A DNA stretch of 58,814 bases, from positions 1 to 58,814 of the forward strand of contig DATKVN010000093.1 of the NCBI GenBank assembly GCA_035530055.1. The letters run 5' to 3'. The stretch is from a bacterium. GTDB lineage: Bacteria; UBA6262; WVXT01. Each line of letters starts with the position of its first letter. Positions within the stretch are counted from its first letter, which is position 1. Shown here one piece after another: positions 2,376-43,622 of the stretch. A program made the position numbers and the translations under genes. The notes under the pieces were generated by a model. That model was not told where the DNA came from and searched no databases. It was given only the letters and a program-made list of their open reading frames with translations.

Positions 2376-2445
2376 TGGGAGTCCTTGCGAATCGCGTAGG
2401 GGCGACCCTTGTGGTCGCCCGAGCCTTCCTATCGGGAGGACTCCA
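2376..2445. repeat. GGAGTCC-type BIME with a GGGCGACC hairpin nested inside
   Basis: The left end GGGAGTCCTTGCGAA and the right end ATCGGGAGGACTCCA are the two ends of the element seen intact at 41114-41168. Between them sits a complete hairpin of another family, GCGTAGGGGCGACC...GGTCGCCC (2395-2421). This looks like one repeat inserted into another. Confidence 0.7.
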
Positions 2446-2472
2446 GCTTTAGGGATGACCGGAAATAAAAAA

Positions 2473-2546
2473 TGGGCCCACTAGGATTTGAACCTAGGAC
2501 TCCCTGATTATGAGTCAGGTGCTCTAACCAGCTGAGCTATGGGCCC
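2473..2546 (-). tRNA. tRNA with CAT anticodon, most likely tRNA-Ile2 (lysidine type)
   Basis: A complete 74-base cloverleaf on the minus strand: acceptor GGGCCCA/TGGGCCC with A as discriminator base, D arm GCTC...GAGC, anticodon stem CCTGA/TCAGG with loop CTCATAA, 5-base variable loop, and T arm CTAGG-TTCAAAT-CCTAG. The CCA end is not encoded. A CAT anticodon may mean elongator Met, initiator Met or Ile2. G1-C72 pairing rules out the usual initiator, and C4-G69 plus C5-G68 match the pairs recognised by TilS in E. coli tRNA-Ile2, so I favour Ile(CAU). Elongator Met remains possible. A T-rich stretch follows the 3' end. Confidence 0.9.
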
Positions 2547-2575
2547 AATTGTGTTTTTATGCTATGAGTGAATTT

Positions 2576-17444: not shown

Positions 17445-18230
17445 TCAGAATATATAGGCTCCTACGCAGGAAATTCCAATAAGCAAATACAAAAGCTTTG
17501 CGGAAGAAATTCGCCAGCGATTAAGTAAGACAACCGAAAAGAAGAACGCTAAAAAGTATAGTCTTTCTATCGCTCTCCAGTCCCGAAACAGTACTACTAC
17601 AACAGTGAGTAAAACAAGAGCTAAACCAATAAGATGGCTACTCCATATTGTACGAAGATAATGCATTTTCTCAAGAAGTCTTACCACTTTAGTCTTCTTT
17701 TCATAACCTTTCATCACTCCTTTAATGCGAGTATGAAAGTGCAGAAAATTATAGAGAAATAGAAAAATTAGTGGCGCCAGCCAGGCGCCTTCCCACTTCT
17801 TTAAATATATAATCACCAGAACGCAAGCTACCAATGCAGTAAAGGGTCGCCACGCTCCCCAAAATAGTGAATCGCCAATACCTCCGAATGCTCCGCCCAT
17901 ACTCATCTTTACTGTGCTAATTTCTTCCGGTTTGACCTCTCCTCCCTTTGCCATTTCTTCTTCCAGACGCGCGACTATCCCTACTAACACATTTGCAAAG
18001 TATGGATGGGTATTGAAAAATTCTAAATGTCGCTTATAAGACTGGATCCTTTTCTCTTTTTCAGGATAGAGCTTATTCAGAACCGGTGCCAATATGTAAA
18101 GAAATCCCAAGTTTTGCATCCGCTCGAAATTCCATACAGATTGCACACAAAAGGACCTCCAGCAAAGACGATATAAATCGAGTTTCTTGATTATTCTATT
18201 GTCCATTGGATTATACATCCCGATTTTCAA
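17445..18230 (-). CDS. PTS mannose-family transporter subunit IID
   Basis: About 255-261 residues. The N-terminal half is the conserved cytoplasmic EIID domain (CWRSFCVQSVWNFERMQNLGFLYI, then MGGAFGGIGDSLFWGAWRP); the C-terminal half has four or five hydrophobic helices. With EIIC it forms the membrane channel that imports and phosphorylates hexoses. The open frame begins with TTG at 18230, overlapping the EIIC stop; ATGs at 18218 and 18206 are more likely starts. The overlap carries a hairpin TCCCGATT/AATCGGGA that could tie its translation to EIIC. Confidence 0.92.
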   Translation of the reverse strand: MKIGMYNPMDNRIIKKLDLYRLCWRSFCVQSVWNFERMQNLGFLYILAPVLNKLYPEKEKRIQSYKRHLEFFNTHPYFANVLVGIVARLEEEMAKGGEVKPEEISTVKMSMGGAFGGIGDSLFWGAWRPFTALVACVLVIIYLKKWEGAWLAPLIFLFLYNFLHFHTRIKGVMKGYEKKTKVVRLLEKMHYLRTIWSSHLIGLALVLLTVVVVLFRDWRAIERLYFLAFFFSVVLLNRWRISSAKLLYLLIGISCVGAYIF

Positions 18231-18919
18231 TCGGGAAATCTGTACCTAAAACCTCTGAAGGTGTTAAAAGCTATTGCTAAACCCAGAGCGGGTATGAGCC
18301 TATATGCAAAATTCAGACCTGTCAATACGCCATACGGTAAACAGGAAAATAATTTGGGCAGAAAATATACCCCGGCACTAATTGCAATCAGAGAGAAAAG
18401 GAATCCTTTAAGAAAAAACAGAAATAAGCTAAAATAATTAACTTTTCCCAAGGCTTTTAAATTACCTTTGGGGATTTCTCGATCTAAGTAGTGCACGAAA
18501 TGTGCATTTAGTTTTCTTTGCTTAATATCTATGCGCGTAAAAATTTCTCCCAGAGGCATCGTAAGTGCCAGGACAACCATTCTGTAAGAACCCTGAAAAT
18601 TATTACCCAGGGGAAGCATTCTCTCGGTCAACATTATCAGAGTTGTGCAAGTTACTGCTACTATTGTTGCATCAGGAGGAATAGCTGCGCCCACAGATAT
18701 CACATTTATCCAAATGAGTTCTAAAAGAACACCAATAATGAGTCCTGTCTTGAGGTCTCCTAATAATAAACCTATGAGGGGTCCACAGACAATAGGCCGG
18801 CAGACCATTATTTGTCCCCAAGCACTTACATCTAAACTTAACAATCCTCCAATAAAACTAGCTACAAAGATTTCAACAATCATTAGAACGGTCCAACGTA
18901 GATATATTGACAGGTTCAA
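18227..18919 (-). CDS. PTS mannose-family transporter subunit IIC
   Basis: 230 residues, nearly all membrane-embedded. Family features include CGPLIGLLLGDLKTGLIIGVLLELIWI and the conserved GAAIPPDATIVAV loop. EIIC forms the sugar-translocating part of the mannose-family permease together with EIID, which it overlaps by four bases. The apparent start is TTG at 18919 with AGGTG just upstream; no ATG lies nearby. It follows the GH57 gene closely, so the GH57 gene is inserted between the soluble EIIA/EIIB genes and the membrane subunits. Confidence 0.92.
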   Translation of the reverse strand: MNLSIYLRWTVLMIVEIFVASFIGGLLSLDVSAWGQIMVCRPIVCGPLIGLLLGDLKTGLIIGVLLELIWINVISVGAAIPPDATIVAVTCTTLIMLTERMLPLGNNFQGSYRMVVLALTMPLGEIFTRIDIKQRKLNAHFVHYLDREIPKGNLKALGKVNYFSLFLFFLKGFLFSLIAISAGVYFLPKLFSCLPYGVLTGLNFAYRLIPALGLAIAFNTFRGFRYRFPD

Positions 18920-23030: not shown

Positions 23031-23373
23031 ATATTTCTATTTTCCTTCCTTTCCCTAATGCGAAGGGATTTGGTGTGCAGCGAGCATTATAATTTTTAGC
23101 CAAAAATCGAAGATTAGAGTTTAGCCGAAACTGACCGTAGGGAATTTCGGTAAACTCCTGAGATTTTTGGCGGTGCTCAAAGAAGATATTCCCTTCGGGA
23201 ATACTTCCATAGGGGTTTCACCCCTCTGGCGTTCACCAAATGTCCACCGGACATTTGCTTCTCTGTCACCCCTTAGGGGAAATCAGATTATTTCCCCCAA
23301 ACCCCCTAATCCGCATCCCGATTGTTATCGGGATGCTTACAAAAAATTGTCAGCGAGCGAACCAAATCCCGAG
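23031..23373. repeat. 343-base spacer packed with palindromes, flanked by an 8-base direct repeat
   Basis: No gene. From left: a long two-step hairpin (outer arms GCCAAAAATC / GATTTTTGGC at 23099 and 23162; inner arms GAGTTTAGCCGAAA / TTTCGGTAAACTC). Then come five more hairpins: TATTCCC/GGGAATA (23187-23203), AGGGGT/ACCCCT (23211-23225), CAAATGTCC/GGACATTTG (23237-23257), ACCCCT/AGGGG (about 23268-23280), GCATCCCGAT/ATCGGGATGC (23313-23336). CAGCGAGC occurs on both sides (23078-23085 and 23351-23358), like a target-site duplication around a 265-base insert. Confidence 0.65.
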
Positions 23374-25758: not shown

Positions 25759-25860
25759 GTCGCGTAGGGGCGACCTTTATGGTCGCCCAGGGGCTTTATG
25801 CCCGCCCCGTAAAAATCCTCATGGGGGAATTTCTAACGGAACGCCCATAAAGGGCTACAC
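25759..25860. repeat. Composite of GGGCGACC and CCCTTTATGGGC hairpins
   Basis: GTCGCGTAGGGGCGACC, TTTAT, GGTCGCCC (25759-25788), then GGGGCTTTATGCCC (25790-25803), then ACGCCCATAAAGGGCTACAC (25841-25860). A near-identical assembly in the opposite orientation lies at 34845-34990. The last hairpin's first GTAG provides the lptA stop codon. Confidence 0.78.
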
Positions 25861-41038: not shown

Positions 41039-41113
41039 TTCCCAATCCCTTTCCTATCTTTAAAGCAGAGCTTCTCTCTGTCATTACTGACATTTAAAAG
41101 ATAGTTTGTGATA

Positions 41114-41168
41114 TGGAGTCCTTGCGAAAGCAAGGTTGATTACATCCCTCCCTTTTGGGAGGACTCCA
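41114..41168. repeat. Intact 55-base GGAGTCC element with inverted ends
   Basis: TGGAGTCC begins and GGACTCCA ends the element. The left half folds as TTGC-GAAA-GCAA, the right half as CCTCCC-TTTT-GGGAGG; ten bases (TTGATTACAT) lie between. This is the clearest complete copy of the family, and serves as reference for the partial ones. It lies 7 bases beyond the LpxL-type gene's stop. Confidence 0.85.
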
Positions 41169-41175
41169 GACCTTT

Positions 41176-42250: not shown

Positions 42251-42278
42251 TTGGGCGACCACGGAGTGTCGCCCCTAC
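42251..42278. repeat. GTAG hairpin repeat, GGGCGACC family
   Basis: TTGGGCGACCACGGAGTG-TCGCCCCTAC, three bases beyond the waaA stop codon. A worn GCCCCT-type leader repeat may lie just upstream at about 42199-42235. Confidence 0.78.
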
Positions 42279-42281
42279 TTT

Positions 42282-43622
42282 TTATACGTAGGTGAGCAGG
42301 TTTTTTGCTAATATGGCACTCTTTTCGGCAGCTCCCTTATGCGCCTTAACTATTTCCAGAGCAGTCCTTCCCATTCTTTCTAATTCTTCGGGATTTGATA
42401 ATAACTTAAGGATACTGTTAACTAGCTCTTCTCTATTAGATACTACTCTTCCTGCTCCCCGGGAAATAAAAGATTGAGCTATTTCTTCAAAATTGTCCAT
42501 ATAGGGACCGAAGAGGACCCCCTTTCCTAAACTGGCCGGCTCGAGAATATTGTGCCCTCCCACAGGAACCAGGCTTCCACCTACAAAGACAATTTTTGCC
42601 AGAGCATAGAAATGAGTGAGCTCGCCAATGGTGTCCAGGAGAATAATCTGATTTAGATTGTTGCCATGAAATGGAGAAGAAAGTTCTGACCTTCTGGTGA
42701 ATTTAAAATTTCTGCTATTCAGCAACTTTTCCACTTCGTTTACTCTCTGCATATGGCGGGGCGCAAGAATTAAAACTATCTGAGGATAAGACTTTTTAAT
42801 TTCTCCATAAACATCAAGGATTGTCTCTTCTTCTCCCCTATGCGTGCTACCGGCAACAAAAATTACCTTGCTTTCGCCAGGACTCCAGAATTGTTTGGAG
42901 TCCTCCCGAAAGGAAGGAAGGTAGTTATCTTTTGAATCAAGAAGAATGTCAGTGCCTACATCAAACTTCAAATTTCCTGTTACAGTGACTGTTGAGGAAT
43001 TAGCTCCCAATGAGATAATCCGCTCTGCATCCATTTGACTCTGCATAATAAATAGGTCGATATTTTCCAGGACTCTGTTCATCAAGAACTTAACCATTTT
43101 ATACTTTCTAAAAGAGCCCGTAGAAATCCTTCCGTTAGCTACCATTATGGGAACTGTTCTTTTCTTTGCTTCCCTTATGAAATTCGGCCAGAGCTCTGTT
43201 TCGGTTATAATCAACAATTTTGGTTTGATGGTATCGAGAACTCTTCTCACTATGCAGGAGAAATCAAGAGGAAAGTAAATGAATGCCCGGGCATCGGGAA
43301 TTACCTTTCTAGCCATAGTTTGACCAGTAGTGGTTAATGTGGAAATAACAAAATCGTAATCAGGGCATTCCTTTTTAATGGCTCTTATTAAATTCCCCAT
43401 GGCTACTACTTCGCCCACGGAAGCGGCATGGGCCCAAATGAGGTTTTCATTTCTTGCTCTGTTTATGCTTTTATTCAAAAAACCTAATCTCTGTTTCAGC
43501 CCTTTTCTTATTTTCTGAATAAAAAATGGCCAGAAGATAGAGAAGAAGAAAACTAAAAGAATCTGGTAAAAAGTCCAGAAGAAATCGAACTTTTTAATCT
43601 TGCCTTTCACGGGTTTTTCCAT
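42282..43622 (-). CDS. waaA: Kdo transferase WaaA (KdtA) with a repeat-derived insertion
   Basis: 446 residues. One N-terminal membrane helix, then the family landmarks: IWAHAASVGEVVAMGNLI, ETELWPNFIREA, ANGRISTGSFRKY, TVTGNLKFDV, VFVAGSTHRGEEE (quoted as AGSTHRGEEE), ILAPRHMQRV, GGSLVPVGGHNILEPASLG. WaaA adds Kdo from CMP-Kdo to lipid IVA and belongs to GT30. Between LKFDV and AGSTHRGEEE it has about nine residues more than E. coli WaaA, and this stretch (LPSFREDSKQFWSPGES) is encoded by two opposed GGAGTCC repeats at 42866-42917 without breaking the frame. It is followed one base upstream by the DUF3108 gene. Confidence 0.95.
   Translation of the reverse strand: MEKPVKGKIKKFDFFWTFYQILLVFFFSIFWPFFIQKIRKGLKQRLGFLNKSINRARNENLIWAHAASVGEVVAMGNLIRAIKKECPDYDFVISTLTTTGQTMARKVIPDARAFIYFPLDFSCIVRRVLDTIKPKLLIITETELWPNFIREAKKRTVPIMVANGRISTGSFRKYKMVKFLMNRVLENIDLFIMQSQMDAERIISLGANSSTVTVTGNLKFDVGTDILLDSKDNYLPSFREDSKQFWSPGESKVIFVAGSTHRGEEETILDVYGEIKKSYPQIVLILAPRHMQRVNEVEKLLNSRNFKFTRRSELSSPFHGNNLNQIILLDTIGELTHFYALAKIVFVGGSLVPVGGHNILEPASLGKGVLFGPYMDNFEEIAQSFISRGAGRVVSNREELVNSILKLLSNPEELERMGRTALEIVKAHKGAAEKSAILAKNLLTYV
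42866..42917. repeat. Opposed GGAGTCC repeat pair inside waaA
   Basis: Plus strand: CCTTGC-TTTC-GCCAGG-ACTCCA (42866-42887), an 8-base spacer GAATTGTT, then TGGAGTCC-TCCC-GAAA-GGAAGG (42896-42917). The first arm matches the left half of 41114-41168 with one change; the second matches the copies at 2962 and 8076. Both are read as protein. Confidence 0.88.

Follow-up and report, generated by a model that had tools for sequence, protein, structure and literature searches.

The 67-base element at positions 2378-2444 of the window, the 58,814-nucleotide stretch that was analysed, has GGAGTCC ends around a GTAG-tagged GGGCGACC hairpin. It is probably (probability of roughly 0.77) a composite REPIN-like element, in which the dimer of one RAYT system carries a REP of another system inside, and which has spread as a unit. 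Its anatomy, a repeated junction, an orthologous plain site, a presence/absence pattern among relatives and RAYT neighbours were observed directly. The window is contig 93 of genome G000 (1.68 Mb, 106 contigs). The genomes compared are MAGs, of which G001, G002 and G003 are sisters within the genus of G000.

Anatomy of the composite element

The left end of the composite, GGAGTCCTTGCGAA (2378-2391, plus strand), consists of the GGAGT tag and the first part of a hairpin (CCTTGC-GAA), namely its 5' arm and a portion of its GAAA loop. Compared with plain copies, this hairpin is broken within the loop, after GCGAA, and is devoid of its 3' arm AGCAAGG. It is followed by a GTAG-tagged REP unit (2392-2422, plus strand) with the structure TCGC-GTAG-GGGCGACC-CTTGT-GGTCGCCC-GA, in which GGGCGACC and GGTCGCCC form a perfect 8-bp hairpin with the loop CTTGT (2400-2420, plus strand). 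The right hairpin CCTTCC-TATC-GGGAGG and the terminal GGACTCC (GCCTTCCTATCGGGAGGACTCC; 2423-2444, plus strand) complete the element. The GTAG unit stands where the AGCAAGG arm and the spacer would be, and is a replacement rather than a simple insertion. This bears out the sequence-only reading, which had described GGAGTCC ends around a complete GGGCGACC hairpin, with part of the centre replaced. Among 25 distinct contexts of free-standing GTAG hairpins, TCGC precedes GTAG in 18, GA follows the hairpin in 6, and both edges are found in 3. As the same edges occur in free-standing copies, the inner insert looks like a whole unit with edges of its own.

The composite lies directly downstream of the 3' end of a tRNA-Met gene (2472-2547, minus strand). 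Its plus strand folds better than 200 of 200 shuffled sequences, and its minus strand better than 199 of 200. Both features would suit a functional RNA or a transcription terminator, maintained by selection at 3' ends and not mobile. This is nevertheless extremely unlikely, as copies are found in many unrelated contexts and differ among sister species, and as transposases are flanked by the same repeats. A host role could have been acquired later.

Plain and free-standing relatives

The reference copy of the plain GGAGTCC element was found complete at 41115-41167 (plus strand), where an intact element had been noted at 41114-41168 from the letters of the window. The corresponding site is empty in G001; in G003, it holds a right arm alone, with an adjoining GGAGTGT dimer. 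Plain copies, most of those listed being 47-58 bases long, consist of a left hairpin CCTTGC-GAAA-GCAAGG, a short variable spacer and a right hairpin that is usually CCTCCC-TTTC-GGGAGG. The outer tag GGAGT directly precedes CCTTGC or CCTCCC. With two inverted REP hairpins and a short spacer, the outer GGAGTCC element has the layout of a REPIN.

The exact left end GGAGTCCTTGCGAA has 56 copies in G000. The sequence-only reading would have been abandoned if every such left end held the inner hairpin; 6 of the 56 hold it and 33 are plain, that is, with a right arm at most 75 bases from the exact left end. The others contain a GGAGTGT dimer (5/56) or an ATGTAGC-type hairpin (3/56), or are of other kinds, truncated or ended by a contig border (9/56). 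Four of the ten composites of G000 differ by one base in their left end and are therefore outside these 56. When one mismatch was allowed, the left hairpin was present in 72 copies in G000, 9 in G003, 2 in G001 and 2 in G002, and in none of the 21 other genomes searched. A chance origin was rejected, as the reversed-pattern controls gave 0 matches.

The inner family is represented in the window by a free-standing GTAG hairpin with the loop TTTAT (25760-25788, plus strand) and by a copy with a longer loop (42253-42278, minus strand), which is lineage-specific, being absent from the three sister genomes. The window contains 12 occurrences of GGGCGACC, for 0.67 expected, and G000 contains 36 exact occurrences of GTAGGGGCGACC. 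A multicopy unit with GTAG immediately 5' of a perfect hairpin conforms to the rule that defines the GTAG superfamily.

A single junction and a uniform loop

The 23-base junction TTGCGAATCGCGTAGGGGCGACC was searched in 145 genomes and occurs ten times in G000, three times in G003 and twice in G001. It is absent from the other 142, including G002 of the same genus, and the reversed control gave 0 matches. Allowing up to three mismatches, a search of six genomes returned 11 matches in G000, 4 in G003 and 4 in G001. The additional G000 match, the eleventh, is a decayed copy that lies close to L065, a Y1 gene.

The inner loop is CTTGT or CTTGC in all ten G000 composites. To count loops, identical 50-base contexts were merged, which reduced the 36 GTAGGGGCGACC matches to 32 contexts: CTTGT or CTTGC is found in 7/7 composite contexts and 0/25 free-standing ones. 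The loops of free GTAG copies vary, TTTAT being the commonest, and the closest to those of the composites is CTCGC, one base off CTTGC, in the free copy L055. The uniform loop absent from free copies, together with the repeated junction and the orthologous composites presented below, makes a single ancestral event the most likely origin of the nesting: the GTAG hairpin would have nested once in an ancestor, and the composite would then have been copied to new sites. The right hairpin differs in composites I and J and is shortened in composite B, which fits exchange among copies.

It could be argued that GTAG REPs repeatedly enter the left hairpin at the same breakpoint, its GAAA loop being a hot spot. 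The left breakpoint is identical in all exact composites, and a comparable architecture exists in a second host family (L045). However, the loops of free copies are varied and mostly TTTAT, and those of the ten G000 composites are uniformly CTTGT/C. In addition, the 3' arm and the spacer are missing identically each time. Repeated independent insertion was rejected on the uniformity of the composite loop and its absence from free copies, and a hot spot is considered unlikely.

Orthologous loci in the sister genomes

The comparison took in ten composite loci located by means of their flanks, plus locus E (2378-2444) and loci A and D. Locus M (G003:C45), a composite without right arm that has no flank match elsewhere among the matches listed, was left out of all presence/absence statements.

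Composites are common to G000, G001 and G003 at locus A, where these three genomes were compared, and at locus G, where G002 matched only the upstream flank. The G001 and G003 copies at locus G have a CCCGATATATCGGG palindrome in place of the inner loop and of one arm. Since the composites at A and G are shared by three species, the nesting must be older than their split. Conversely, loci F, I and J carry a composite in G000 and none in any of the three sisters, where the flanks match. By parsimony, GGAGTCC-ended units reached these three sites in G000 after the arrival of the inner family. The nesting had initially been taken to give a relative age for the two families, the inner one still moving after the GGAGTCC element had landed. 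This dating fails, as the composites at A and G predate the split and those at F, I and J are found only in G000. Both repeat families were active in overlapping periods.

Other loci show mixed patterns. The composite of locus K in G000 is absent from both G001 and G002, and there is no G003 match among those listed. At locus H, for which two sisters were compared, the composite of G000 is matched by a right arm only in G003 and is absent from G002. Locus N has a composite in G001 and other repeat clusters in G000 and G003. Locus C is occupied by a composite in both G000 and G003; G001 has a single right arm there, and G002 no composite. As one sister keeps a single right arm at both C and H, deletion between tandem arms is an alternative to gain at these two loci. 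At locus B, G000 and G001 carry a composite, G003 a plain element and G002 a single right arm; G003 and G002 share the downstream flank only. Locus D has a composite in G003 and in G001, where a CCCGATATATCGGG palindrome replaces the loop, and none in G000, which has kept the outer ends and flanks but contains an intact left hairpin with a cluster of other hairpins inside.

Composite-free sites of the sisters often hold other hairpins. Turnover at these sites is thus high, and the sisters may have lost composites at F, I and J by replacement. A plain element could also have landed at these three loci, followed by conversion; spread as a unit is what we infer.

The locus beside the tRNA-Met gene

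The composite at locus E in G000 corresponds to a plain element, GGAGTCCTTGCGAAAGCAAGGTCTCTGGTCGTCAGCCTCCCTATCGGGAGGACTCC, in G003. The right-arm loop TATC is found in 1 of 102 right-arm-like stretches in the G000 loci (17 of which, with GAAA, are probably such palindromes seen from the opposite strand) and in 1 of 24 in the relatives. These two form the orthologous pair, which indicates that the outer right arm was inherited and that the interior alone changed. G001 yielded no stretch covering the site, and G002 is rearranged without synteny. The search for an empty site in related genomes, proposed along with the sequence-only reading, has therefore yielded a plain GGAGTCC element in G003, and an outgroup would be required to tell gain from loss. 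The interior may have changed either in G000 by gain or in G003 by loss, as both directions fit the sequences.

One account of this pair is that a GTAG hairpin jumped recently into a resident GGAGTCC element at E, independently of the other copies. The plain G003 site with its retained TATC loop does indicate that the interior changed in one lineage, and a separate GTAG nesting (loop TTTAT) exists in a GGAGTGT dimer (L045, G000:C28:5423). However, nine other loci have the identical junction and the same loop type, which is missing from free copies, so that a new jump would need the same breakpoints and the same rare donor again. A recent jump is therefore very unlikely, and a one-off local insertion at E is largely refuted by a junction repeated ten times. 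What stands of the initial proposal is that two families are nested, the GTAG hairpin being the inner and later-arriving one; that the nesting was a local, one-off event does not, given the junction at ten loci.

Within conserved outer ends, the interior differs at D and E and, less firmly because only one flank is shared, at B. The arms common to plain and composite forms measure 14 and about 20 bases, and arms of such lengths are short for ordinary RecA recombination. The GGAGTCC dimers might be docking cassettes, the outer hairpins of which are fixed and the interior of which is exchanged repeatedly. The interiors would comprise the plain spacer, the GTAG REP, the GGAGTGT dimer, the ATGTAGC hairpin and the CCCGAT palindrome, and the exchange would be transposase-assisted or hairpin-templated instead of an ordinary insertion. 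The footprint of docking cassettes would be the different interiors at D and E, with both flanks conserved, and at B, with one flank. Docking is regarded as unlikely.

In the G003 orthologue of window positions 2440-2560 (L103), two tRNA-like stretches occur along with the tRNA-Met gene; they have CCCGAT...ATCGGG-type palindromes in place of anticodon or T arms. ARAGORN called a single tRNA in this region.

RAYT transposases

Eight matches to Y1 transposases were found in G000. The RAYT gene L066 has tandem GGAGTCC dimers on both sides and a composite at one edge. It thus provides the outer element with a RAYT gene flanked by its own repeats, as expected for a REPIN. L067 has on both sides GGAGTAGC dimers, GGAGTAGC containing GTAG. 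L064 and L068 have GTAG hairpins of the inner type on their flanks, but not the exact GGGCGACC sequence. L064 lies between two genes of G000 that we take to be leuC- and leuD-like. All four proteins score above the NCBIfam cut-off for REP-associated tyrosine transposases, with 108.6 bits for L066 against NF047646 (cut-off of 80). The two that were compared by phmmer with the solved TnpAREP structure 4er8 gave E-values of 6.7e-10 (L066) and 7.1e-07 (L064), and they have HUH motifs (HYH and HLH), which places them among the RAYT/TnpAREP proteins.

A tree was built with 16 Y1 proteins, leaving out four broken G003 matches (L186, L187, L190 and L191). The proteins flanked by GGAGT tags, namely L066, L067 and L195 of G003, group in one clade with a support of 1.00. 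The GTAG-hairpin-associated L064, L193, L068 and L194 form a separate clade with a support of 0.96-0.98; L194 has one GTAG site in front of the gene and one within it.

The 72 left hairpins occur in G000, the genome that holds the GGAGTCC-flanked RAYT. For a 140-base piece of the L066 gene, the matches listed include none from the three sisters, and none of the 11 Y1 matches of G003 (0/11) has a GGAGTCC hairpin arm within 1 kb. No Y1 transposase was detected in G001, which is 92% complete, or in G002. Yet G001 carries composites, including that of locus N, which is absent from G000 and G003. Unless the gene has disappeared from G001 or escaped detection, this argues against the idea that a resident RAYT is simply required. 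In G001:C72 (L108), the repeat clusters in front of a dehydrogenase-like gene vary among the sister species.

Mobilisation by RAYTs is suggested by the RAYT neighbours, the copy-number pattern and the presence/absence data taken together. In the proposed scheme, the outer part would be a REP dimer made of an inverted pair of GGAGT-tagged hairpins, and a RAYT like that at G000:C43:15946-16194 would most likely move it in trans. The inner part would be a GTAG-tagged REP unit belonging to a second RAYT system. A single entry of this REP, in the ancestor of the three species, may have gone through the single-stranded loop of the left hairpin, and would have cost that hairpin its 3' arm and the element its spacer. 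The 67-base composite would afterwards have been copied to additional sites. With both GGAGT-tagged ends kept, it is probably still a substrate. At some sites, E included, the outer ends are fixed, and the composite and other forms appear to swap between them. Copies probably convert or recombine with one another; we infer this mechanism and its direction at E.

Further nesting of repeats

Several additional arrangements were observed. A second composite family consists of five GGAGTCC elements (L015, L016, L022, L136 and L139) that have a very similar complete GGAGTGT...ACACTCC dimer in their spacer. In L045, the TTTAT-loop GTAG hairpin lies inside a GGAGTGT dimer that has lost its left hairpin and kept the right one intact; this is a second, independent nesting. 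Nesting has a further level: a larger inverted-repeat element, with AAAAGATAGTTTGT at its end, contains or adjoins several GGAGTCC elements (41064-41172 in the window; L024, L027 and L146).

The palindrome CCCGAT-N(0-8)-ATCGGG has variable loops and occurs at 18219-18235 and 23317-23332 in the window and at L126, L167 and L168. There are 82 such sites in G000, 61 in G001, 80 in G002 and 219 in G003, compared with 0-3 for reversed controls, and 0 and 3 sites in two genomes of the same order. At two loci, the inner GTAG hairpin has this palindrome where its loop and one of its arms would be.

A head-to-head GGAGTCC pair at 42862-42907 is located in frame in a 446-residue open reading frame (42282-43622, minus strand), which presumably encodes a KDO transferase. 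The pair is absent from the matching stretch in the three sister genomes.

Discussion

REPINs with RAYTs (Bertels and Rainey 2011, PMC3116915; PMC8049555) resemble the present system in having two inverted hairpins separated by a short and diverse spacer, copies by the tens, a repeat-flanked RAYT gene, and presence or absence among relatives. The present element differs from those descriptions in that its tag is GGAGT and not GTAG, and in that its interior is a REP of another family, with the composite present at many sites. Asymmetric REPINs and REP heterodimers are already known (PMC8049555 and PMC3733652), so that the unequal arms of the composite are not new.

The inner unit, with GTAG directly 5' of a perfect hairpin, resembles the GTAG REPs described in Di Nocera 2013 (PMC3733652), and related GTAG hairpins flank the RAYTs L064 and L068, as in the REPtrons of that work. 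The same source reports that S. maltophilia has hybrid dimers made of different GTAG families, and that dimers lie inside palindromes in A. variabilis (GTAG-15 dimers, long palindromes) and in H. neapolitanus (CGTC-1 dimers, 41-bp palindromes). In contrast to these cases, the GTAG unit is found here within a dimer of a different tag class, whose own RAYT the genome encodes, and sister genomes have plain elements at orthologous positions.

REP tags named in PMC6006769 are GTAG, GTGG and, for class 3, CnGA, and the tag rule given there for class 2 REPs is GTAG/GTGG. The GGAGT tag fails the GTAG/GTGG rule, and the outer element is consequently called REPIN-like and placed outside the GTAG superfamily. 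A search of the main texts of two REP papers gave no word that starts with GGAG. The dimers that bear the GGAGT tag have a RAYT clade of their own and may add to the known REP tags. Alternatively, GGAGT may be a variant of the GTAG tag, since the sister GGAGTAGC dimers contain GTAG.

IS elements targeting REPs were reportedly described by Tobes and Pareja in 2006. One such IS element is ISPpu9 (PMC8450116). REP hairpins serve as insertion targets in those systems, as they do here, but the insert in the present case is a REP of about 31 bases without a gene. A literature search with the letters of the inner hairpin returned nothing related by title or abstract opening. In the open-access literature on nested REPs and MITEs, which was the scope of the survey, the arrangement was not found among the papers listed, beyond PMC3733652.

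REPINs are usually described as populations moved by a single RAYT. Here, REPs from two differently tagged RAYT systems share one 67-base element, and four closely related genomes reveal a shared origin, lineage-specific copies and replacement of the interior at fixed sites. Where a nest can itself spread, the order of nesting is not enough to date repeat families.
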